Source: Rhodococcus sp. IITR03
GTDB lineage: Bacteria; Actinomycetota; Actinomycetes; Mycobacteriales; Mycobacteriaceae
Direction: 5' to 3'
Length of the DNA stretch: 10,443 bases
NCBI GenBank assembly: GCA_001017865.1
Contig: LATQ01000419.1
Span: 1-10,443, forward strand
In this document: in pieces, positions 1 through 10,443 of the stretch
Layout of the letters: each line of letters starts with the position of its first letter
Numbering within the stretch: the stretch's first letter is position 1
Made by a program: the position numbers and the translations under genes
The notes under the pieces: generated by a model
The model's input: only the letters and a program-made list of their open reading frames with translations
What the model was told of the DNA's origin: nothing
Databases searched by the model: none

Positions 1-910
1 GGCCCGGCTCGGAGTGGCTGCGCGCGCGGTCGAGCCAGCCGTGCTGCGCGGTGGCGACCTTCTCGCGCATCCGCGTCCAGATGGTGCGGTGTGCCGGTGC
101 CTGATCGCCGAGCACCATCTTCCGCAGCGCTCCGGAGATGAGTTCGACGACGATGCACAGTGCGACGACGAACAGCGCCAGCGCCATGCCGCGCTGATAG
201 TTCATGGTGCGCAACGCACCCGACAGTTCGAGGCCGATGCCGCTGACGCCGACGTATCCGAGGATGACCGACGCGCGCAGGTTGATGTCGAAACGGTGCA
301 GGGCGGTGGCGACGAAGGCCGGCATGGCCTGCGGGAACACTCCGCCCACGATCTGCTGCCACCATGACGCACCGGCCGCACGCAGTGCATCGCGGGGTCC
401 GGGGTCGGTGTCCTCGATCGCATCCGCATAGAGCTTGCCGACCATGCCGATCGAGTGCAGGCCGAGCGCGAGAATGCCGGCGACCGCTCCGAGTCCGAAC
501 AACCGCAGGAACAGGATCGCCAGCACGAGTTCGGGAATGGTGCGGGTGACGACGATGATCGCACGGGCACCCCAGCGCAGCGCCGTGCCGGGGGTGGTGT
601 TGTGGGCCGCAGCGAGGGCCACGAACATGCTGAGTATCACCGACAGCACCGTCGCGAGGAGCACGATGCCGAGGGTCTGTGCCGTCATCGTGACGAGTTC
701 GCCGATCGGCGGGAAGTCGAGCGGGAAGATGCGCCCGACGAAACTCACCGCATTGTCGGCACTGTCGATGATCGTGGCCACATTGATCTTCAGGTCCGCC
801 ACCGCCCACAGGGACGCGGCGAACAGGCCGAACAGGATGACGTTCACGCTCACCGTCTGCCACGTCGGGCGTGGCAGCGTCGAGCGCGGTGGGTTGGTCA
901 GAAGAGTCAT
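1..910 (-). CDS. phnE: Phosphonate ABC transporter permease PhnE (3' end outside window)
   Basis: Inner-membrane permease of the PhnDCE phosphonate importer. The frame is open from ATG at 910 to the left edge (303 codons), with no frameshift. It starts MTLLTNPPRS, followed by several hydrophobic segments. A permease EAA loop is seen at about residues 174-197 (DALRAAGASWW, then GGVFPQAMP), the surface that meets the ATPase PhnC. The start lies 6 nt after the phnC stop; no clear Shine-Dalgarno is seen, so translation is probably coupled. Single-domain PhnE proteins are about 260-280 residues. Here the membrane part seems complete near residue 265, but a charged stretch (RTIWTRMREKVATAQHGW and on) continues without a stop. 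This could lead into a second, fused PhnE permease domain or be a long tail; the window ends before this is settled. Confidence 0.93.
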   Translation of the reverse strand, partial: MTLLTNPPRSTLPRPTWQTVSVNVILFGLFAASLWAVADLKINVATIIDSADNAVSFVGRIFPLDFPPIGELVTMTAQTLGIVLLATVLSVILSMFVALAAAHNTTPGTALRWGARAIIVVTRTIPELVLAILFLRLFGLGAVAGILALGLHSIGMVGKLYADAIEDTDPGPRDALRAAGASWWQQIVGGVFPQAMPAFVATALHRFDINLRASVILGYVGVSGIGLELSGALRTMNYQRGMALALFVVALCIVVELISGALRKMVLGDQAPAHRTIWTRMREKVATAQHGWLDRARSHSEPG

Positions 911-916
911 GGAGCG

Positions 917-1736
917 CTACACCGGCTGTCCGACGGAGACCGGTTCGACGGCCGAGTAGATCGACATCGTCTCGTTCTTGTCGATCTGCGAGACCGGCTT
1001 GTCGAGAACCAGTGAGCCGCCGCGCAATCCGACGAGTCGATGTCCCCACGACAACGCGAGGTCGACCTGGTGCAGACTGCACACCACGGTCAGCGAATCC
1101 TCCGACGCGATGCGGGAGATCAAGGCCATCACCTGAGCCGAGGATTCCGGATCGAGGGAGGCGACCGGTTCGTCGGCGAGCAGGATGCGCGGCTTCTGGA
1201 TGAGTGCGCGGGCCACGGCGACTCGCTGCTGCTGGCCCCCGGAGAGGGTGTCGGCGCGCTGGAACGGACGGTCGGCGAGGCCCACACGGTCGAGTTGTTC
1301 CATCGCGGCGAGCCGCACCGACTTCGGATAGCTCATCAGCCGAAGCGCGGGCCGCGCAGCGACCCGAGGCGCCGGTGCACACGTTCTCGAGCACCGTCAT
1401 GTTCCCGACGAGATGGAACTGCTGGAAGACGAAACCGACCTTGCGGCGCAACGCCCGAAGTTCTCGTCCGCGGGCGGTGCCGACGTCCTGGCCGAGAACC
1501 TGCACCGTGCCCGAGGTGGGCAGGTGCAGGCCGTCGAGCAGACGCAGCAGGGTGGATTTTCCGGAGCCCGACAGGCCCAGGAGCGCGACAACTTCACCCG
1601 GGTACACCTCGAGCGACACGTCGTCGAGCGCCCGCAGATCGGGACCGAACTGCTTCGTGACGCCGCTGAGCGAGATGGTGGGCCGGAGGATCTTGTCGAT
1701 GGATGCGCCGAGGCGCGAATGATCGGAGTCGGTCAT
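917..1736 (-). CDS. phnC: Phosphonate ABC transporter ATP-binding protein PhnC (two apparent frameshifts)
   Basis: Cytoplasmic ATPase that drives PhnDE phosphonate import. Start ATG at 1736 is preceded by GGAG with 6-nt spacing. It shows Walker A GLSGSGKST, Q-loop FVFQQFHLV, ABC signature LSGGQQQRVAVARAL, Walker B ILLADEPVASLDPES and H-loop SLHQVDLAL. All match PhnC, including the family's LSGGQQQRVA and SLHQVD forms. The frame breaks twice, near 1370 (GCC-TC, one C short) and near 1340 (GGCTG, one C short). Adding these bases restores a PhnC-like middle, NVCTGALGSLRGPRFGLMSY, and gives about 273 residues, the normal size. Both breaks look like sequencing errors. Stop TAG at 917-919. It follows phnD by 32 nt and is in the same operon. 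Confidence 0.93.
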
Positions 1737-1768
1737 GTCGGGCTCCAAGAGGGTCGGGGTTCGTGGGG

Positions 1769-2734
1769 TCAGCTCGCGCAGGACGGCGACTGGGTGATCT
1801 CGCAGACTTTGCGGACGCCGTCGTAGACGTCGTCGGTCACCGGGATGTATCCGTACTCGGCGCTCTCCGGCAGTTCGCACTCCTCCGCGGTGCTGCAGTA
1901 GCCGGCCTCGACGAGCGCCGGACGGTTGAGCTTGTTCTGGAAGATGTCGCTGAGCTGGTCGACGAGGTCCTGCGGCAGAGTGCTCAGCACCGCGGTCGGG
2001 CTGGACGCGATGGTCTCGGATTCCCAGACGACGTCGAGGTCACCTTCGGCGAGATCGCCCTTCTTCACGAGGGTCTCGGTGACCATCGTGTCGAACGCGA
2101 AGCCCGCGTCGCACTGGCCGCTCTTCACGGCGAGCGCCGACGCGTCGTGACCGCCGGCGAAGACCGGGGTGACGTCGTTCTCCGGGTCGATTCCGGCCTC
2201 GATGAGACCGGCCGAGGGATACAGGTAGCCGGATGTGGAGGTGGGGTCGACGAAGCACACCGTCTTGCCACGGAAGTCTTCGAGCGAGCGGATGTCGGAA
2301 CCGGCAGGCACGATCGCGTACGACTGGTAGCCGGGCTTCTCGTCGGGGGCATCGGCGAAGCTCGCGAGCGGCTGCACGGGCACACCGCTGTCCCGTGCCG
2401 TGACGTAGGAGAACGGGCCGTAGTGGCCGATGTGCACCTTTCCTGCGCGCTGCGCCTCGATGACAGCGGCGTAGTCGGTGGCATTCTGGAATTCGGTCTT
2501 CAGGCCGGTCTCGTCCTCGATGACCTTCTGCACCAGCGCGAACTGCTGCTGGAGACTGGAGCTCTCCTCGCTGGGGATGGCGGCGATCACCAGGGTGTCG
2601 GGGGCGCCGTCACCGACGGACGTGCCGCCGGCGGAGTTGTCCTCGTCGGCGCTCGACCCGCAGGCGGAGAGGGCGAGCGCCGCGGCGGCGGCCACGGCGG
2701 CAGCCGTCAGGGAACGTGATGAACGAATACGCAT
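1769..2734 (-). CDS. phnD: Phosphonate-binding lipoprotein PhnD
   Basis: Extracytoplasmic substrate-binding protein that captures phosphonate and delivers it to PhnE/PhnC. It is 321 residues and intact. The N-terminus is a lipoprotein signal: MRIRSSRS, an Ala/Leu-rich core and the lipobox LSAC with Cys25, so it is membrane-anchored outside the cell. The mature part has the PhnD/SsuA-type periplasmic-binding fold: AAIPSEESSS, the YAAVIEAQRAGKVHIGHYGP region, and FVDPTSTSGYLYPSAGL, the loop that usually binds the phosphonate/phosphate oxygens. ATG at 2734 has a strong AAGGAG Shine-Dalgarno (2743-2748, 8-nt spacing). PhnD relatives also bind phosphite or hypophosphite; the C-P lyase genes upstream make phosphonate the likelier ligand. 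The 125-bp gap upstream carries likely control sites, so phnDCE may have its own promoter. Confidence 0.95.
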   Translation of the reverse strand: MRIRSSRSLTAAAVAAAAALALSACGSSADEDNSAGGTSVGDGAPDTLVIAAIPSEESSSLQQQFALVQKVIEDETGLKTEFQNATDYAAVIEAQRAGKVHIGHYGPFSYVTARDSGVPVQPLASFADAPDEKPGYQSYAIVPAGSDIRSLEDFRGKTVCFVDPTSTSGYLYPSAGLIEAGIDPENDVTPVFAGGHDASALAVKSGQCDAGFAFDTMVTETLVKKGDLAEGDLDVVWESETIASSPTAVLSTLPQDLVDQLSDIFQNKLNRPALVEAGYCSTAEECELPESAEYGYIPVTDDVYDGVRKVCEITQSPSCAS

Positions 2735-2859
2735 GGGAAGAACTCCTTGTCGGGGCGTCGCGTTCAGACTGTCTGCATGGTGTATCCGGGTATCGAACTG
2801 GAGATGAACCGTTCATCTCGCCCGAGCGACGATCCGTACGCCTTGTGCGGTAATTCGGA
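2735..2859 (-). promoter_or_regulatory. phnM-phnD intergenic region, probable phnDCE promoter
   Basis: This is the only sizeable gap inside the phn cluster; the other junctions overlap or are at most 32 nt apart. It holds a 19-nt palindrome (2801-2819), two 11-nt GTTC-type direct repeats on the minus strand (2788-2809), a small 11-nt palindrome (2765-2775) and the phnD Shine-Dalgarno (2743-2748). I infer a promoter for phnDCE on top of read-through from the phnF end. No confident -35/-10 pair can be named by eye. Confidence 0.55.
2788..2819 (-). promoter_or_regulatory. Candidate phosphate-starvation (PHO-box-like) site: palindrome plus GTTC direct repeats
   Basis: A perfect inverted repeat GAGATGAAC-C-GTTCATCTC occupies 2801-2819. 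Reading the minus strand, GTTCATCTCCA (2809-2799) is followed directly by GTTCGATACCC (2798-2788), two 11-nt units in register. Actinobacterial PhoP/RegX3 regulators bind GTTCA-type repeats with 11-nt spacing upstream of phosphate-uptake genes, so this is a sensible candidate for SenX3-RegX3 or PhoR-PhoP control of phnDCE. The match is by eye and the regulator is inferred. Confidence 0.5.
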
Positions 2860-4093
2860 TCACACCGCGCGCAGCACGGCGCGGGTGACGGGATGCCCGT
2901 GCTCGACGGCGACGAGCACCAGATCAGCGCGCTGACCTGCGTCGAGAGCCCCTCGGTCGGCGAGCCCCACGGCCGTGGCAGGGCCACTGGTGACCAGCGC
3001 GACGGCGGCCGGAAGGCCATCCCCGCTCGGCGAGGACGAACGCTGCACCCAGCAGCGACGACGGAAGGTAATCCGACGCCAGCGCGGTCACCAGTCCCAG
3101 GTCGGCCAGCTCACCGGCGGACACGTTGCCGGAATGCGACTTCCCGCGCAGCACGTTCGGTCCGCCCATGACCACCGACATCCCGCGATCCCGCGCCTCT
3201 CGTGCCGCCTCCACCGTCGTGGGGAACTCGGCGACGTTGCCGCCGCGCGCAGCGAGGTCGGCGATCTCCACGGCCGACTCGGGGTCGTGCCCGAAGATGC
3301 GGACGAGCCCGGTACGGGACTGCTCGGCGAGCCAGCCCATCGTCGTGTCGCGGATGCCGGCGTTGGCTTCGCGTTCGGCTGCCAGTTCGTCGACGTAGGC
3401 GCGGGCGGCCTCCGCGGAGATGCCGCGAACACCTGCGATGTGATTCTCGTAGTAGGCGCGGTCCGCGTACTGCCCGATGCCGGGGGTGTGGTCCTCGTGC
3501 GAGATCACCGCGGGCGTTTCGGTGGTGACCGCACCGGTGGCGACGAGCCGCTCGAATTCGGCACGCATGGCCTCGAACCCGGCCTCCGACCGGACGTCCA
3601 GGCGGTGCAGTACCCGGTGGTCGACGAGCCGCAGTCGGTCTCGCGCAGCGACCACTGCTCGATGGACTCGCACATGCGTTGCGCGACGTGCACGCTGCGG
3701 CCCGACGTCGCGGTGGCCCGGTCGGAGAACGACGCGCCGTGGAAGACCGTGGTCACGCCGGCGGCGCGAACCTTGCCCTCGAACGACATGAGCGCGAACG
3801 ACCAGGCAGTTCGACGCCGGGTCGCGGCATCCGTTCCTTCTCGAGGCCGTCGGAGTGCACGTCGACGAGCCGGGCAGGCACAGCAGTCCCCCGCCGTCGA
3901 CGTCGGCGCGGACACCGGGCACCGACGGGCCGACTTCGGCGATACGACCGTCGCGCACCACGATGCGGGCGTCGTCGAGGACCCGGTCGGGCAGCACGGC
4001 CCGCACGTGCCCGATCACGTAGTTCTGCGGTGCGCGCTGCAACGTCCAGGGCAGCGCGTCGGTGGTCTCGGGGGCGAGTTCGATTCCGGTCAT
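2860..4093 (-). CDS. phnM: PhnM, alpha-D-ribose 1-methylphosphonate 5-triphosphate diphosphatase (four apparent frameshifts)
   Basis: Amidohydrolase-fold enzyme that removes pyrophosphate from ribose-phosphonate triphosphate before C-P cleavage. Start ATG at 4093 overlaps the phnL stop (ATGA) and has GGGAG about 10 nt upstream. In order it shows LPGLVDVHSDGLEKE (metal site, compare LPGLIELHTDNLDK of E. coli PhnM), MPRPGVELPW, SFEGKVRAAGVTTVFHG, SHEDHTPGIGQYADR, FGHDPES, NVAEFPTTVEAAREARDRGM, VMGGPNVLRGKSHSGNVSA, SDYLPSSLL and the C-terminal GLADRGALDAGQRADLVLV. Breaks: near 3870 (GGG short by one), 3805 (CCC short by one), 3637 (CCC short by one) and 3021-3024 (one G too many or two too few on the coding strand). 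Repair gives about 411-412 residues. The real stop is TGA at 2860-2862; the unrepaired frame ends falsely at 2924. Confidence 0.92.
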
Positions 4094-4828
4094 GCTGCGT
4101 GTGCTCCCAATACGTCGGCGGGGGGACCGATTTCGGCGATGTCACCGTCCGCGAACCGGACGACACGGGTGGCGAGGCGGTGCATGGCGTCGATGTCGTG
4201 GAAGACCGCGAGAACGGCGACGCCGGAGGCGGACAGCGAGGCGATCAGCTCCAGGCGCGCTCCCGGTTGACGGGTCGAGCGCCGAGACCGGTTCGTCGAG
4301 CAGCAGCAGCGCGGCGGGTGCACGGTGCCCGCGGCGATGTTCACACGCTGACGTTCACCGCCCGACAGGACGCTGCAGTCGACGTCCCACAGTGCCTCGT
4401 CGAGGGCCAGGCGCTTCAGCGACTCCGCGGCGGCGTCGCGGGCCTCGGTGCGGCTCATCCGCGGCGACGAGCGGCGGATGCCACCACCTCGAGCGGTGCG
4501 GTGCGCGGCGGCGCCGACAGGAATTGGGAGACGTAACCGAGTTCGCGGCCGCGGAGGCGGGCCATCTCCCGGTCGGCAGATCGGTGAGTTCGACCGGGCC
4601 GTCGTCGGTGTGCAGCACGACGGATCCGGAGTCGGGCAGGTAGCTGCGGTGCACGCAGCGCAGGAAGCTGGACTTTCCTGCACCGGACGGCCCGGCGAGC
4701 GCCACGTGCTCGCCGGCGGCCACGTCGAGGTCGACGCCGTGCAGCGACGTCACCTTCCGTCCGTCGATGGTGTGGAGGGTGAACGACTTTCGCAGGTCGC
4801 GCACGGTCAGAACAGGTGTGGTCTGCAT
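4090..4828 (-). CDS. phnL: PhnL, C-P lyase system ATP-binding protein (five apparent frameshifts)
   Basis: ABC-family ATPase of the C-P lyase pathway, needed with PhnG/H/I for making the ribose-phosphonate triphosphate. It shows [18 protein letters not shown], Walker [10 protein letters not shown], the PhnL-specific GYVSQFL followed by PRTAPLEVV, signature [14 protein letters not shown], Walker [13 protein letters not shown] and H-loop [16 protein letters not shown] lies 6 nt before ATG 4828; an in-frame ATG at 4834 overlaps the phnK stop (ATGA) but sits directly on that GGAG, so 4828 is preferred. Breaks: near 4569, 4460, 4312, 4265 and 4255, each one base short in or beside a G/C run. Restoring five bases gives 744 nt, about 247 residues. 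Stop TGA 4090-4092 overlaps the phnM start. Confidence 0.92.
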
Positions 4829-4830
4829 GG

Positions 4831-5670
4831 TCATCTCCGGGCGGCGGCGACGAGCCGCTGGGTGTAGGGGTGGTGTGGGTCCTGGAACAGCTGGTCGGTG
4901 AGGCCGGTTTCGACGGCGCGTCCCACGTTCATCACCAGCGTGCGGTCGGTGAGCGCTTCGATGACCGCGAAGTCGTGGCTGACCACCACGGCTGCGGTGT
5001 CGCGTTCGGCGAGCAGGTTGCGCAGCAGGTCGAGCACACCCGCGGCGACGGAGGCGTCGAGACCGGTGGTGGGCTCGTCGAGCAGCAGCACCGCGGGTCG
5101 GTGGCGAGGGCCTTGGCGATCTGCACGCGCTGGCGCATACCGCCGGAGAAGGTGTGGACCGGATCGTCCATGCGGTCGAGGGGAACTTCGACCTTCTCGA
5201 GCAGATAGGCGGCGCGGTCGCGGATCTCGTAGTAGTTGCGCCAGCCCGCCGCGGTGAGCCGCTCGGCGATGTTGCCACCGGCCGACACCGTCATGGTGAG
5301 TCCGTCGGCGGGGTTCTGGTGGACCAGCCCCAGGGTGTCGATCCGCAGAGCACGACGCTCGGTGTCGTCGAGGGTGAACACGTCGGTGCGGCCCTCGTCG
5401 AGCGTGGTCAGGAACATCGAACCGGCCGTGGCCTTCTCGTCGCCGATGAGGCAGCGCAGCACGGTCGACTTGCCGGATCCGGATTCGCCGATGATGCCGA
5501 GTGCCTCACCGGGTGCGACGTCGAAGCTGACGTCCCATGCCGCGACGACCGCTCCGGTACGGGGACTGATGGCCGTGCCGGCCTCGGGTCCGGTGCCGGG
5601 AACTGCGTCGGCGCCACCGGGGCCGTGCACCTTGCGACTCCGCGGACGGCGAGCGTCCAGCCTTCGGCAT
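4831..5670 (-). other. phnK: PhnK domain of the fusion
   Basis: ABC ATPase half. It shows [33 protein letters not shown] with Walker [10 protein letters not shown] near residue 400, the PhnK-typical [11 protein letters not shown] and [11 protein letters not shown], signature [15 protein letters not shown], Walker [13 protein letters not shown]-loop [12 protein letters not shown] and the C-terminal [11 protein letters not shown]. Compared with E. coli PhnK it carries about 20 extra residues rich in Gly, Pro and Ala between the first strand and WDVSFD. No ATG, GTG or TTG lies in frame between the last PhnJ cysteine codon (5822-5824) and the first PhnK strand. Confidence 0.9.
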
Positions 5671-6690
5671 GGGCCGGGACGGGCCGGTCGACGAGTTCCT
5701 TCGGGTCGCGGTGATCGGCGGCCGCGGCGACGCGGACGCGACGCTGCGGATCGGGCAGGTACTGCAGCGGGGCGTTGTTCGCGTGCCGGTCGAGGTCGAC
5801 GTCGGCGTCGGTGACGCGGGTGCACCACTCGACGTCACTGCACATCATGCGGCCGGGGGCGGCTTCGACGAGGAAGGTGTCGGTGGAACCGCACCGCTCG
5901 CACTGCTGATCCTTCGAACCCTCCACCTCGAACGGCACGTCGTCGAACGTCAGCGGGCGCACGTCGGTGTAGGGGGGGACGGCGAAGATGCGCTTCTCAC
6001 GACCCGCACCCAGCAGCGTCAGGAACGGCGAGTCGTGAAGCTGCGGCACGTCCCAGCGCGGGATGGGCGAGGTGATCATCACGTAGCGGCCGTTGACGAG
6101 CACCGGGTAGCCGGTGGTCTTGGTGATGACGCCGTTGCGGACGAGGTCCTCGTAGAGGCTCACCCACATCATCGAGTAGTCGGCCTCGGCGTGCATGCGC
6201 GCGCACTCGGTGACGGACTTCTGCACGGCGCGAAGAGGTTCGGAGTTGGGGACCTGCAGGACGAGGATCTGGTCCTCCCCCATCGGTTCCTCGGGGATCC
6301 GGTGACGCGACTGGATGATCGTCGCCTCACGGGTGTCCTTGGTGCTCGCGCACTTCTCGCTGTCCTCGATGAGGCGGCGCAGGTTGGTGGCGTTGACGCC
6401 GTCGTCGTCACCCTGGTCGATGACCTTGACGACGTCGTCGGCGGTCACCAGACCGAGCGTGACCTGCAGGCCACCGGAACCCCAGCCACGTGCCACCGGC
6501 ATCTCGCGGGACCCGAAGGGGGTGAGGTAACCGGGCACGCAGACCGCGGTGAGGGATGCGCGGCGGATCTCGCGCTTGGAACCTTCGTCGAGGATGCCGC
6601 GGCCGGGGGTGGCGGCGCGATCGCGTCGAGGGTGTGGGTCAGGCGGGACGGCGCAGCGCCGGGAGCGTGCGTCGTGAGGGTGTCGGTCAT
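4831..6690 (-). CDS. phnJ: PhnJ-PhnK fusion: radical-SAM C-P lyase joined to its ATPase subunit (three apparent frameshifts)
   Basis: PhnJ cleaves the C-P bond of 5-phosphoribosyl 1-phosphonate by a radical-SAM reaction, giving an alkane and ribose cyclic phosphate; PhnK is an ABC ATPase that binds PhnJ in the core complex. ATG at 6690 overlaps the phnI stop (TGATG), with GGAGG 9 nt upstream. The PhnJ half is complete: glycyl-radical region [14 protein letters not shown] (Gly about 54), [25 protein letters not shown], then Cys 264, 267, 284 and 290 ([13 protein letters not shown]). Without a stop it continues through a linker of about 50 residues into [13 protein letters not shown] and the full PhnK ATPase. 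Breaks near 6614 (GG short), 5636 (GTCCGC lost a C) and 5092 (one base short before the Walker B codons). Repaired length is about 620 residues. Stop TGA 4831-4833. The fusion call is about 0.75; the family calls are near certain. Confidence 0.9.
5700..6690 (-). other. phnJ: PhnJ domain of the fusion
   Basis: Codes for residues 1 to about 330. The start region [17 protein letters not shown] runs into [17 protein letters not shown] once one G is restored near 6614. The four PhnJ cysteines occur with the family spacing: CxxC, then 17 residues, then C and six further. In E. coli PhnJ these correspond to C241, C244, C266 and C272, and Gly32 corresponds to the glycine of VPGY here. After the last cysteine, E. 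coli PhnJ ends within about ten residues; this one continues ([20 protein letters not shown]). Confidence 0.9.
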
Positions 6691-7799
6691 CAGCAGATGC
6701 CTCCGAGAGGTTCGGCAGTGCGGGCCGGAGCGTCGTCCTCGCCGGCCTGGACTGCGAGTTTGCGGTCGATCATCGATCGGAAGGTGACGTAGTGCGGAAG
6801 CTTGAGGTGCTCGAGGAAGCCGCAGGAGTCGAGGCCGTCCGTGGTGAGCAGCAGGGTCTGTTCGAGGCCGGTGCTGTCACCGAAGCGACGGCACGCGATG
6901 TCGAGGTTGGCCATGGCGATGGCCTTGCGTTCGTTGTGCCCGAAGCACAGGCCGTAGCCGACGTCGAAGCGGCCGCGGTCCTCGTCGGGACCGTTGAGGT
7001 CCTCGATCGCTTCGCACTCGCTGGCGCGGATCTCGCCCATGACGAAGGGATTACCGGTGTGCGGGTGCCGGATCCGACCGGGATACGCCCGTGCCGGACC
7101 TCGCCGAGGGTCGTTTCGTGGATGTTCCCGTCGGTGCCGCGGACCGAGCGGTACCAGGTGCCCACGAGCGCACCGGTCTCGGCTCGCGCCATCGAGGCGA
7201 GCACCGCCCGAGCGCGGCGCCGGGGGAACCGGCAGGTGACGGGAGATGTCGAACGGTTCCGGGTCGGAGCCGTCCTCGGGACGGCTGTCGACCATCAGGT
7301 TCATGTCGCGCAGCAGGTCGGAGAAGCGGCGCGGGTGCCGTTCGGCCTCGGTGCGTTCGACGGACGGATCGGCCTCGGACGGCACCGTCACGATGTTCGT
7401 GCCCTCACGCACCAGCATGCGTCCGGTGTAGTCGCTTGTGCGGCCGAGCAATTGGGGTCCGTCCGGGGTCCGCCACGCCGGCACGATGCGGCGCAGCACC
7501 GTCATCTCGTCGGGGTCGACCGGCTCGCTGGTCGCCAGTCGCGGCAGGGTGGACTGGTGGGCGCGGACGAGGTGGGTGGCTTCGATGACGTCGCCTTCGG
7601 CCTGTCGCAGCGCATCGGCGGCGGTGGCCTCGTCGTACAGCGAGCCCTCCCCCATCACGCGGTCGACGGCGAGTCGCATCCGGCCGGTGATCTGCGCGGT
7701 GGTCAGCGCCGGCGAATCGTCGGTGTCGCGGGCGGTGCGGACGAGTTCTTCGGCGGCGAGGATCGCGTCGAGTCCGCCGCGTGCTCCCGAGTACCCCAT
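6690..7799 (-). CDS. phnI: PhnI, C-P lyase core subunit (two apparent frameshifts)
   Basis: Core subunit of the PhnGHIJ complex; PhnI is the nucleosidase/transferase that displaces adenine from ATP with phosphonate, helped by PhnG, PhnH and PhnL. ATG at 7799 (MGYSGARGGLDAILAAEELV) has GAGGAG 7 nt upstream and lies 1 nt after the phnH stop. It shows LAVDRVMGEGSLYD, LRQAEGDVIEATHLVRAH, LLGRTSDYTGRML, FDISRHLPVPPAPRS, GALVGTWYRSVRG, HPHTGNPFVMGEI, FDVGYGLCFGHNERKA and HLKLPHYVTFRSM, matching PhnI throughout. The frame shifts near 7207-7209 (G run off by one insertion or two deletions) and returns near 7080-7082 (one C short on the coding strand). The stretch between reads in the other frame as AVLASMARAETGALVGTWYR and HETTLGEVRHGRIP. 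Repaired length is 369-370 residues. Stop TGA overlaps the phnJ ATG. Confidence 0.94.
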   Translation of the reverse strand: MGYSGARGGLDAILAAEELVRTARDTDDSPALTTAQITGRMRLAVDRVMGEGSLYDEATAADALRQAEGDVIEATHLVRAHQSTLPRLATSEPVDPDEMTVLRRIVPAWRTPDGPQLLGRTSDYTGRMLVREGTNIVTVPSEADPSVERTEAERHPRRFSDLLRDMNLMVDSRPEDGSDPEPFDISRHLPVPPAPRSGGARLDGASRDRCARGHLVPLGPRHRREHPRNDPRRGPARAYPGRIRHPHTGNPFVMGEIRASECEAIEDLNGPDEDRGRFDVGYGLCFGHNERKAIAMANLDIACRRFGDSTGLEQTLLLTTDGLDSCGFLEHLKLPHYVTFRSMIDRKLAVQAGEDDAPARTAEPLGGIC

Positions 7800-7800
7800 G

Positions 7801-8388
7801 TCAGTTCTCCTCTGCGATCGGAACGACGCGTGTCGTGCGGGGAATGCCGACCATCGCACCGTCTTCGGCGACGATCAGCAGGTCGATACCTGCGGGAAAA
7901 TCCGCGGTGGCCTCGTTGCGGGCCCGCCACAGCTGCTCGTCGAACCCGGACGGCGAAATACGTTCGGCTTCCTCGACTCCCGGGCCGGTCAGTTCGACCG
8001 GGGTACCGCCGCGCAGCGAGGTCACCTCGACCACGACGGTCGCGGCCGATTCGGGTGACAGGGCGCTGCCGCGGGTCGCGGTGAGCAGATCGTCGGCGGT
8101 GGGAGCTCGCAGCACCGTGAGGTAGCGGGCACGGTCGGCCGACGTCACGGGAGCGCCGGTGGCGACGGTGAGCACCTCGAGCCAGTGGCGGCCGTCGGAT
8201 TCGAGGACCTCGACGCCGGTATCGAGATCGGCGAGGGCGAGCGCCGGCAGCAGCGCCGCCGGGAAATCGGTCGAGGGCAGCATCTGCTCGAGGCCGGGGC
8301 GCGTGTACGCGGCGAGAACGTCGCGGTAGATGCGTCCGGCGGTGGCGGGATCGAGTCCGATACCGACGATCGGGTCTGCGATGGTCAC
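7801..8388 (-). CDS. phnH: PhnH, C-P lyase core subunit
   Basis: Subunit of the PhnGHIJ core complex; PhnH forms the dimeric/peripheral part and has no known catalytic residues. It is intact, 195 residues, close to E. coli PhnH (194). The start is GTG at 8388 (VTIADPIVGIGLDPATAGRI), with GAGGAG 5 nt upstream; the upstream phnG stop overlaps it (GTGA). Conserved stretches: VTSLRGGTPVELTGPGVEEA, ERISPSGFDEQLW and the PhnH ending DFPAGIDLLIVAEDG followed by VGIPRTTRV. The frame stays open far upstream in GC-rich sequence, so length alone would place the start wrongly; the Shine-Dalgarno and overlap fix it. No frameshift is needed. Confidence 0.95.
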   Translation of the reverse strand: MTIADPIVGIGLDPATAGRIYRDVLAAYTRPGLEQMLPSTDFPAALLPALALADLDTGVEVLESDGRHWLEVLTVATGAPVTSADRARYLTVLRAPTADDLLTATRGSALSPESAATVVVEVTSLRGGTPVELTGPGVEEAERISPSGFDEQLWRARNEATADFPAGIDLLIVAEDGAMVGIPRTTRVVPIAEEN

Positions 8389-8820
8389 GTGAGCTCCTCG
8401 AATTGCACGATGGTGGGGGCGATCCGGCCCATTCCTCCTGATCGGCGCGGTCGAGGTCCTGCTCGACACGGGCACACAGATCGCGGACGACATGGGCGTG
8501 CGGACGATCGGCGGCGACCTCGGCGTCGCACACCGCGGCGGCGAGCACGGCCGCGCGGTCGTCACCCATACGCAGAGCCCAGCCGCGGGTTCCGGCCACG
8601 CGCACCTCGCGTGGCAGGCCAGGACGTTGCCGAGATAGAAGCGGTCGTGGGCGATGGGTTCGCGTACCTGTACCGCAACGCATCCCACTTCGGGAGCGGT
8701 CAGGACGGTGAGGTCGGCGCCGTCGGACAGACACGCGTCGGCGGCCGCGACGAGGTCGGGTTCGGGTGCCGCCGCGAGCAGTTCGGCGAGCCGCTCACGC
8801 GTGTAGTCGGCTGTAATCAT
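8385..8820 (-). CDS. phnG: PhnG, C-P lyase core subunit (two apparent frameshifts)
   Basis: Small subunit of the PhnGHIJ core complex, needed with PhnI, PhnH and PhnL for ribose-phosphonate triphosphate formation. Start ATG at 8820 overlaps the phnF stop (ATGA), with AGGG 8 nt upstream. N-terminus MITADYTRERLAELLAAAPE; middle VGCVAVQVREPIAHDRFYLG and NVLACHA; then, after a one-base shift near 8609, EVRVAGTRGWALRMGDDRAA, VLAAAVCDAEVAAD and CARVEQDLDRADQEEWA. A second shift near 8425 restores APTIVQFEELT and a TGA that overlaps the phnH GTG start. Adding both bases gives 438 nt, 145 residues, near the family length (about 150). The pattern matches the Thr-Arg-rich start, E(V/T)G(L/C)V and the G(Y/W)xxxxG(R/D)D region of PhnG. 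Confidence 0.92.
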
Positions 8821-9580
8821 ACGAATATCCCTGTTCTCCTCTGAGATTCGAGTGGGTTCGATACGGAGCGGTCGCCTATTTCCATGACCACGCGGATCAT
8901 GTCGGCGCGCATCCACGACATGCTGTAGGTGACGGCGACGCCGGTGTCGGCGTCCCGATTGATCGATTCGACCGTCCACACGGGCGTCACGAAGTTCATT
9001 TCGAGTGCGTCGGCGATCTCCGGTGCCGGCACTTCCGTTCCGATGCGGCACCACGACCGCACGACGTCGAATCTTCCCATCTGACGCAGTAATTCGTCGA
9101 GAGATTCTTCGACCCGCAGACCGGAGCCGAGTTCCGTGAGCGCGGCACGGGTGACCCATTCGTCGCCGACCGCCGCGACGTTGCCGTCGACGAACCGCAG
9201 GCGACGCATATGGTGCACCTCGGTTCCGGGCGCGACCCCCAGGTACGCGGCTTCGCGTGCCGAGCCGGCCGGACATCGGAGGACAGCACCGTCGACCGGG
9301 GCGTTGCACCTGCGGCCTCGACCGTGCGGTGCCACGACGGTCGCTGTTCGTGCGAGATGAGGTAGTCGATGGGCCGGTTGACGAAGGTGCCCGACCCTCG
9401 GACGCGCCGGACCAGTCCGCGACGTTCGAGTTCCTGCACGGCGGCGCGGGCGGAGGCCCGGCCGACTCCGAACCGATGCATCAACTCGTGTTCGCTGGCG
9501 AGCTTCGTACCGGTTTCGAGCTCGGAGATCTCGTCGGCGAGCACACACGCAATGTCGTGGTAACCGCTACGTTCTGTCAC
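8817..9580 (-). CDS. phnF: PhnF, GntR/HutC-family repressor (one apparent frameshift)
   Basis: Likely transcription regulator of the cluster. The N-terminal winged helix-turn-helix (about residues 5-75) reads HDIACVLADEISELETGTKL, ASEHELMHRFGVGRASARAA, then VQELERRGLVRRVRGSGTFV, a textbook GntR domain. After a one-base shift near 9265 (GCC short by one C) the C-terminal UTRA effector domain follows: AREAAYLGVAPGTEVHHMRR, FVDGNVAAVGDEWV, and a YSMSWMRADMIRVVMEIGD ending typical of HutC-subfamily proteins. Repaired length is about 254 residues. The start is GTG at 9580 (VTERSGYHD); no Shine-Dalgarno is seen, so it may be leaderless or start otherwise. The stop overlaps phnG. A PhnF-type operator 23 nt upstream suggests autoregulation; in M. 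smegmatis, PhnF represses phnDCE. The ligand is not known. Confidence 0.9.
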
Positions 9581-9602
9581 GTCGACGACTGTCGCCGACG
9601 GA

Positions 9603-9616
9603 GTTGTACAGACAAC
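9603..9616. promoter_or_regulatory. Candidate PhnF operator
   Basis: GTTGT-ACAG-ACAAC is a perfect 5-bp inverted repeat. Its core TTGTACAGACAA agrees at 9 of 12 positions with the operator known for M. smegmatis PhnF (TGGTATAGACCA), and two of the three differences are a compensating pair that keeps the symmetry. It fits the HutC-subfamily rule GT-N-TA-N-AC except for C in place of T. It sits 23 nt before the phnF start codon. Confidence 0.65.
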
Positions 9617-9641
9617 TTCCCTTCAGATAAGCAGAAGGGAA
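9617..9641. repeat. Inverted repeat TTCCCTTC / GAAGGGAA
   Basis: Perfect 8-bp arms (9617-9624 and 9634-9641) separated by 9 nt (AGATAAGCA). It directly abuts the PhnF-type operator. It could be a binding site for a second regulator or a stem-loop in the leader RNA of the plus-strand gene. No function can be assigned from sequence. Confidence 0.6.
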
Positions 9642-9668
9642 ACAAAGCTGAACGACTCGGGTAGTTGT

Positions 9669-9889
9669 ATGGCCACCAGTACCGCGTGGTGCTCCCGCCT
9701 CTTCGACACCTCACCCGTGCTCGACGAAGACGACGAACCGGGCGCCGTCCATCATGCGGTCTTCACGCTCGACGGTGGCACACCGTTCGGATTGCGCACC
9801 CATTCCGATTCGCCGCCGCAGGCGTCCTTCGACGAGCGGAACACGGGGCTCGACCACATCGCGTTCGAGTTCTTCGCACCACGAGCTGA
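9669..9889 (+). pseudogene. Remnant of a VOC (glyoxalase/bleomycin-resistance fold) gene
   Basis: From ATG at 9669 the frame gives AWCSRLFDTSPVLDEDDEPG, AVHHAVFTLDGGTPFGLRTH and SFDERNTGLDHIAFEFFAPR. These match three parts of actinobacterial VOC proteins, but two pieces are missing. The first strand that normally precedes SxAWYxRLF (about 18-20 residues) is absent. TGLDHIA, which should be followed by some 45 residues, joins straight to the usual C-terminal LEFFAP motif. The frame lacks a stop, but adding one C at 9886 would give APRA followed by TGA (9887-9889). The predicted product is about 73 residues against a usual 130-140, with a metal-binding half probably lost. It is divergent from phnF and tail-to-tail with the VWA gene. 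I call it a decayed remnant; an assembly collapse is the alternative. Confidence 0.6.
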
Positions 9890-9893
9890 TCGA

Positions 9894-9908
9894 CCACCCG
9901 GTCGGTGG
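9894..9908. terminator. Weak hairpin between convergent genes
   Basis: CCACC and GGTGG flank CGGTC in the 49-bp gap between the VOC remnant and the VWA gene stop. It is placed where a bidirectional terminator would be, but the stem is only 5 bp and there is no T run. Confidence 0.2.
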
Positions 9909-9938
9909 AGCATCCGCGCGCGTGCGTGGCGATGCCGC

Positions 9939-10443
9939 TCAGGTGCGCGAGGTGCCGATCTCCACCACCTGCGCCCATTCCGGTGGCCGGTCCGGAACGA
10001 AGTCGGGGTTCGCTTCGCTCAGGGAAGCGATCCGGGGGAACAGTCCGACCACCGTTCGGCACCCCGGACGGCTGTTGGGCCAGGGAGTCTGCCCGTCGGT
10101 GAGGACGACCACCACGTCGGGCCGGGGCGTACTGCGCAGCATCCGGGTGAACCCGGCCCGCAGATCCGTGCCACCGCCCCCGACCAGTGGAATGTCCTCG
10201 GCCGTGCACAGCGGGTGTACGATCCGCGCCGCTGCGTCGCAGGACAGCACCGTGACGAGGTCGCGTCGCCCACCTACGGCCCGCACGATGGCGGCCACCT
10301 CGAGCAGCGCGCTGCCCAGGTCGGTATCGGAAACCGAGCCCGACGTGTCGACGATGACGCCGACCCGGGGCGGGTCCGCCGCAGGCTCGGTAGTACCGCC
10401 CCGGGCACGGCTGCCGAGCGCGCGCCGGTCGACGATAGGTGTA
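9939..10443 (-). CDS. VWA-like domain protein, C-terminal part (5' end outside window)
   Basis: The visible 167 residues end at TGA 9939-9941. They form a VWA-like domain: PPRVGVIVDTSGSVSDTDLG with the MIDAS motif DTSGSVS, LLEVAAIVRAVGGRRDLVTV, LSCDAAARIVHPLC, GGGGTDLRAGFTRML (the second MIDAS threonine region), RPDVVVVLTDGQTPWP (third MIDAS Asp) and PEWAQVVEIG at the end. This matches the C-terminal domain of the VWA-like/DUF2201 family, whose members often sit next to a MoxR-type AAA ATPase and are thought to act as metal-dependent protein-interaction partners; that neighbour would be to the right of the window. The frame is intact here. It faces the VOC remnant and shows no functional tie to phosphonate use. 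The specific role is unknown. Confidence 0.82.
   Translation of the reverse strand, partial: TPIVDRRALGSRARGGTTEPAADPPRVGVIVDTSGSVSDTDLGSALLEVAAIVRAVGGRRDLVTVLSCDAAARIVHPLCTAEDIPLVGGGGTDLRAGFTRMLRSTPRPDVVVVLTDGQTPWPNSRPGCRTVVGLFPRIASLSEANPDFVPDRPPEWAQVVEIGTSRT

Follow-up and report, generated by a model that had tools for sequence, protein, structure and literature searches.

The carbon-phosphorus (C-P) lyase of Escherichia coli is a Phn(GHIJKL)2 machine (PDB 7z15-7z19, 4xb6), in which the C-P bond-cleaving radical enzyme PhnJ and the ATP-binding cassette (ABC) ATPase PhnK are the products of separate, overlapping genes. According to the accessible part of PMC9947105, E. coli complexes are isolated with either one PhnK, which is disordered and inactive, or two; a pair of PhnK brings in two PhnL, and the core is opened by hydrolysis. 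The locus described here lies in a stretch of 10,443 nucleotides, called the window throughout, from Rhodococcus sp. IITR03 (GCA_001017865.1, contig LATQ01000419.1, positions 1-10,443 of the forward strand). A Pfam scan of its frame pieces identifies the minus strand as a C-P lyase operon. In this operon of a Rhodococcus-like actinomycete, in contrast with E. coli, phnJ and phnK are one gene, phnJK, whose product is probably one chain with an added linker that would fix two PhnK on each core. Fused genes make up a widespread clade, its intact members have one stop-free frame, and the cluster cysteines and main ATPase motifs are kept.

A single gene for PhnJ and PhnK

The first-pass annotation of the window had proposed that PhnJ and PhnK are one polypeptide, and the local facts behind this proposal hold. 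The last PhnJ cysteine codon lies at 5824-5822, the frame stays open for 54 codons up to the W of WTLAVRGV, and no stop triplet occurs in any of the three minus-strand frames from 5837 to 5508. This open stretch alone is weak evidence, because the window is 69% GC and 4.6% of its 320-bp minus-strand stretches are free of any stop triplet (0.6% on the plus strand). An in-frame start for PhnK between the domains is also missing, as had been claimed: the sole ATG, GTG or TTG in 5823-5650 is the ATG at 5670, which is out of frame with PhnJ and with PhnK alike, and in the PhnK frame GTG first occurs at 5630, beyond the first PhnK strand.

What the proposal did not mention is that 4831-6690 is not a single open frame in the window: the coding frame switches near 6617, 5634 and 5090, the second of these about eight codons into PhnK. 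The fusion is therefore unprovable from the window alone. Aligned with genome G796 over 10,469 columns, the window shows 99.57% identity, and the two probably belong to the same species, judging by this value. The window has 26 deletion sites relative to G796, 25 of a single base and one of two bases (four of the 26 are in the final 25 bases of the window, where the alignment is unsure), together with one insertion and 17 mismatches. Three of the deletions sit in phnJK, which is why no window frame covers the whole gene; phnI, phnL and other genes are disrupted likewise. Single deletions scattered in this way along the operon look like the pattern of an uncorrected draft.

In G796 the gene encodes a stop-free PhnJ-PhnK protein of 620 amino acids, matched at 100% over its full length by protein P0002, which contains PF06007 and PF00005 and is 95% identical over 85% of the search query. 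Because so close a genome carries the unbroken frame, the fusion in this gene is real. Single proteins of about 620 residues with PF06007 followed by an ABC ATPase domain were sought more widely, as the first-pass annotation had suggested, and both domains were found in 117 of the best 120 of 5,037 protein matches (exceptions P0001, P0006 and P0018). The opposite arrangement in a close relative, PhnJ ending at a stop and PhnK having its own start, was also looked for, and no case occurs among the nearest, G796 and loci L001-L003 all being fused.

Distribution of the fused form

The fusion is common in certain actinomycetes and rare across the phylum. The best 80 of 152 genome loci, those nearest to the window, were kept, so the ratio of forms among them is biased: 47 are fused, 31 are separate and two fall in neither class (L030 ends at a contig edge and L064 is without a PhnK match). 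All but one of the 47 fused loci have PhnJ and PhnK in one unbroken frame, the exception being L012, with a break inside PhnK. Among 390 genomes from the family to which G003 (Pseudonocardia kunmingensis) belongs, 38 have a match; the fused form is present in 33 of them, with G1042, whose match stops inside PhnK, included in the count, and three of these 33 also carry a separate PhnJ. The genus of G001 has five matching genomes out of 18, four fused and one with a PhnK piece only. The order of G001 has nine out of 397, of which four are fused, four are separate at 47-53% identity and one (L112, in G743) is fused-like and frame-broken, with a first break where the linker meets PhnK and a second within PhnK. 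No second close PhnK stands beside the fused gene in the loci examined. A search of viral contigs gave no match, and a plasmid search returned four records only, with matches covering at most about 1% of the query.

The linker

The first part of the linker (residues 292-318) is conserved and predicted to be ordered, and the remainder is variable. At least 90% conservation is seen at R292, D297, D299, H303, P308, L309, L312, P313 and R318 in 54 aligned sequences, and the AlphaFold model has a predicted local distance difference test (pLDDT) score of 95, 92 and 81 for residues 291-300, 301-310 and 311-320, with 55 and 66 for residues 321-330 and 331-340. In the main clade of fused loci, defined below, an R at linker position 2 followed by D is found in all 46 loci and the pattern [LY]P[DEN]P in 30 of the 46. 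From the last cysteine to Walker A there are 92-123 residues in 46 main-clade loci, with one outlier of 272, while a separate PhnJ ends 5-33 residues past this cysteine (43 loci scored). The separate loci L092-L094 and L096 have PhnJ tails of roughly 38-65 residues, without the fused-linker motif. In-frame tandem repeats occur in the variable part of two linkers, of 108 nucleotides in L015 (6933-7221) and of 51 nucleotides in L061 (5383-5487).

The low model confidence of the second linker part would suit a gene whose product does not stay whole, the chain being cut in this flexible segment, or PhnK also being made from an internal start, so that two proteins result as in E. coli. Such an outcome is distinctly unlikely, and the absence in the window of any in-frame ATG, GTG or TTG from the last cysteine up to the first strand of PhnK speaks against it.

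Origins of the fusion

A PhnJ tree of 95 rows was built with the linker excluded; seven separate loci whose cysteine pattern was unmatched (L092-L094, L096, L113, L114 and L116) were left out of the tree, the residue mapping and the linker statistics. A main clade with support 100/97 joins 47 fused rows, one of them P0002, and two unclassed rows, and no separate row falls inside it among the rows sampled. It spans Rhodococcus, Nocardia, Mycobacterium, Pseudonocardia, Saccharopolyspora, Streptomyces and other genera. Two fused loci, L061 and L076, lie outside the main clade and have linkers without its motif, and the tree contains three changes, two of them forced by well-supported branches. 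In the PhnK tree the main fused rows stand together (Shimodaira-Hasegawa-like approximate likelihood ratio test, SH-aLRT, 99), with two changes in all.

A single origin for all fusions was considered and rejected: a clade of all fused rows has p 0.0013 in the approximately unbiased (AU) test, for which the groups were defined with the tree already known. The test also rejects the main clade plus L061 (p 0.0105) and does not reject the main clade plus L076 (p 0.147). In our reading these trees suggest that the fusion arose at least twice, with L061 as a supported second origin; the L061 fusion depends on one thin assembly, with coverage near 1. Among the family genomes of L076, one of 37 matched, L076's own. 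A further protein, P0181 (named as Nocardia), whose cysteines are intact and whose linker does not show the main motif, may be another fusion event; P0181 and P0209 are J+K single proteins 45-48% identical to the E. coli query.

In L083 and L084 (G244 and G105) a lone TAG separates phnJ from phnK, which share a reading frame; this may be an intermediate on the way to fusion. The fused form is one change away from this arrangement and could arise easily, which would also fit a neutral history, in which the phnJ stop was lost and the adjoining genes, once joined, were inherited without functional consequence. The coexistence of both forms in some genomes fits it too. A neutral history is nevertheless rather unlikely, given that the main clade extends over many genera with no separate row inside it in the sample, that the start of the linker is conserved and that there is support for at least one more independent fusion.

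The same clade bears on the suspicion, raised by the frame switch just inside PhnK, that the organism has two separate genes, run together in the window by reading errors. The deletions and the insertion relative to G796 lend it some ground, and errors in overlapping phnJ and phnK genes can yield single proteins: among 44 matches examined with a joined E. coli J+K query, 27 are without the intact cysteine pattern, some of these being fragments, and 17 have it (e.g. P0125, P0127, P0144, P0146). The unbroken frames of G796 and of nearly all fused loci, the conserved linker positions and the support for the fused clade leave this explanation with a negligible probability, and as a candidate it was ruled out by the intact relatives.

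Conservation of the two halves

The E. coli contact and catalysis residues of PhnJ and PhnK described in the available text of PMC9947105 were mapped onto the main-clade rows. In PhnJ, Gly32 and the four cluster cysteines are identical in 46 of 46 rows and in P0002, Y158 and D229 are kept in all rows, D228 is kept in 43 of 46, and E149 appears as D. In PhnK, the Q loop Q90, Walker B D170/E171 and H204 are identical in 45 of 45 rows, and PF00005 scores above its cut-off; the docking residues towards PhnJ include R78 and R116 in 45 of 45 rows each, and Y118 as Y in 42 and F in three.

The best NCBIfam match of the PhnK half is TIGR02323 (PhnK), at only 229-235 bits for P0002 and L001 with a cut-off of 302.85. 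Scores of 210-224 bits leave all five of the separate actinobacterial PhnK tested below it too, and E. coli PhnK scores 412.3. Judged by its sequence, the half is a PhnK-type domain and not a member of the NCBI equivalog. The predicted halves match the E. coli PhnJ and PhnK structures, and a predicted template modelling (pTM) score of 0.82 suggests that the two domains have a definite arrangement. Near the start of the separate PhnK, a CxxC...CxxC pair, possibly metal-binding, is present in nine of 43 loci (L054, L070, L083, L084, L087-L091; in L070 the match possibly starts in sequence upstream), and no such pair is seen in 48 fused loci.

Several observations weigh against a fused gene that fixes two PhnK on each core. 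In an even sample of the phylum 15 of 396 genomes match, only the centre genome is fused and the separate form prevails. Some genomes have both fused phnJK and separate phnJ (L022/L070 in G003, L025/L054 in G004, L031 in G783, L074/L121 in G006, and G1054). Comparison of the window with L001 and L002 shows the linker evolving several-fold faster at the protein level than either domain, with ratios of nonsynonymous to synonymous substitution (dN/dS) of 0.25 to 0.83 in pieces of 27-30 codons, as against 0.10-0.11 for PhnJ and 0.06 for PhnK. The fused chain may be cleaved after translation. Four E. coli residues, finally, are not kept in the main clade. PhnJ D226 is T in 41 of 46 rows, the PhnK docking residue R82 is V in 25 and I in 20 of 45, the A-loop tyrosine Y15 is H in 31, Y in 11 and F in three of 45 (H in P0002), and W29, stacked on PhnL in the E. 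coli complex (PMC9947105), is A in all 45. At R82, D226 and W29 most separate actinobacterial copies depart from E. coli likewise, the R82 position being V or I in 31 of them; at Y15 the separate copies are less divergent (Y 16, F 16, H 4, gap 4).

Proposed mechanism

The phnJK product would be one protein of about 66 kDa. Its PhnJ half would join PhnG, PhnH and PhnI in the two-fold core, so that two PhnK domains are carried on every core. These would dock on the PhnJ helical insertion in E. coli fashion, dimerise on ATP, recruit PhnL and pull the core open upon hydrolysis. The docking of PhnK on PhnJ in the E. coli core, invoked in the first-pass annotation, agrees with the accessible text of PMC9947105, and the 1:1 PhnJ:PhnK stoichiometry that it expected is what a covalent link would predict. 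Two PhnK per core would be automatic because the two proteins are joined, and the main effect would be to hold PhnK at that number and exclude the single-PhnK state. The first linker part would be an ordered extension of PhnJ beside the last cluster cysteine, and the rest a flexible leash.

A further proposal, on the doubtful side, would make the fusion more than a leash: the conserved, predicted-ordered segment that follows the last cluster cysteine could be a new element, capping the iron-sulfur site and transmitting the ATP-driven movement of PhnK straight to it. If so, the motor would drive the radical centre via the backbone as well as via docking, and this might aid an oxygen-sensitive enzyme in aerobic actinomycetes. 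The fusion bears on the role of ATP in C-P lyase: a covalent 1:1 link that occurs naturally favours the complex with two PhnK and with PhnL as the one that works, and provides a construct that cannot lose its motor.

Operon context and feature coordinates

Pfam matches in the window comprise PhnI (PF05861), PhnJ, ABC ATPases, a phosphonate-binding protein, a UTRA regulator and, weakly, PhnG (PF06754 at 22.5 bits, under its cut-off of 32.4). PF06007 scores 345.6 bits in the window piece and 373.6 in L001, with a gathering cut-off of 25. The gene order in L001 is GntR/UTRA regulator, PhnG, PhnH, PhnI, PhnJ-PhnK as one frame of 621 amino acids, an ABC ATPase in the PhnL position and an amidohydrolase, followed by a phosphonate-binding protein and then an ABC ATPase. 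The operon of the window is read in this order too, from the phnF-type regulator through phnG, phnH, phnI, phnJK and phnL to an amidohydrolase and transport genes. The neighbours of PhnJ-PhnK in L001 include PF06754, PF05845, PF05861 and an ABC ATPase, and phnG, phnH, phnI and phnL thus accompany the fused gene in an operon.

Table 1. Features of the phnJK region (window coordinates unless marked L001)
Feature	Position	Strand	Evidence and remarks
phnJK, fused PhnJ (C-P bond-cleaving radical enzyme) and PhnK (ABC ATPase)	4831..6690	-	620 codons in G796; PF06007 and PF00005 in P0002/G796; three frames here, apparent draft errors
PhnJ part; Gly54 (E. coli Gly32), Cys264, 267, 284, 290 (P0002 numbering)	5822..6690	-	PF06007, 345.6 bits on 6538-5408; residue mapping
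Linker, conserved first part (P0002 residues 291-318)	5738..5821	-	54-sequence alignment; predicted ordered (pLDDT)
Linker, variable part (P0002 residues 319-344)	5660..5737	-	Low pLDDT; length differs among relatives
PhnK part, from W345, ABC ATPase domain	4834..5659	-	PF00005 on 5828-4932; best NCBIfam match of P0002 is TIGR02323, below cut-off
PhnK Walker A, GESGSGKST	5463..5489	-	Sequence
PhnK ABC signature, FSGGMRQ	5130..5150	-	Sequence
PhnK Walker B with catalytic Glu, LLLDEP	5071..5091	-	Sequence
phnI; stop touches phnJK start	6690..7859	-	PF05861; frame-broken near 7207 and 7075
phnL, separate gene overlapping phnJK stop	4090..4834	-	L001 equivalent; lower end approximate; several draft errors
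L001 equivalent of phnL	7707-8465 (L001)		ABC ATPase of 252 amino acids
phnF-type regulator, upstream of phnGHI-JK-L	8817..9548	-	PF07702 (UTRA) here; GntR and UTRA in L001

Comparison with known systems

No description of a PhnJ-PhnK fusion was found in the titles, abstract openings and passages covered by searches of an open-access library, so that an earlier mention is possible, and the available text of PMC9947105 has no word starting with 'fus'. Streptomyces clusters without phnJ or phnK, namely phnFGHIKLM, phnMLKIHFEEDCNKG and phnMLJIHFCED, are reported in the accessible part of PMC7866108. An unrecognised fusion may lie behind these, since a fused gene can be given one name only. Domain fusion in phosphonate breakdown is also represented by PhoF, a fungal phosphonate oxygenase that fuses PhnY and PhnZ and belongs to a different pathway with other enzymes (PMC10574752, in the part available).

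Single proteins close to E. coli J+K occur sporadically (P0123-P0150). Most have PF06007 and PF00005 in one frame, 25 of the 28 are single-member clusters, and many are without an intact cysteine pattern. Another kind of joint is seen in P0152-P0164, proteins of about 633 amino acids in which PhnI is joined to an E. coli-type PhnJ; P0152 represents 385 members, and a frame change is likely there, as its PhnI end departs from K-12 before the joint.

The separate phnJ and phnK of other Actinomycetota (for example L050-L060, L070 and L074) are two genes, with phnK just downstream and, in the loci named, PhnJ halves 62-69% identical. Some contact residues of the fused form differ from those of the E. 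coli enzyme. The fused PhnJ-PhnK is a variant of the known E. coli C-P lyase machine, and apparently a new one.
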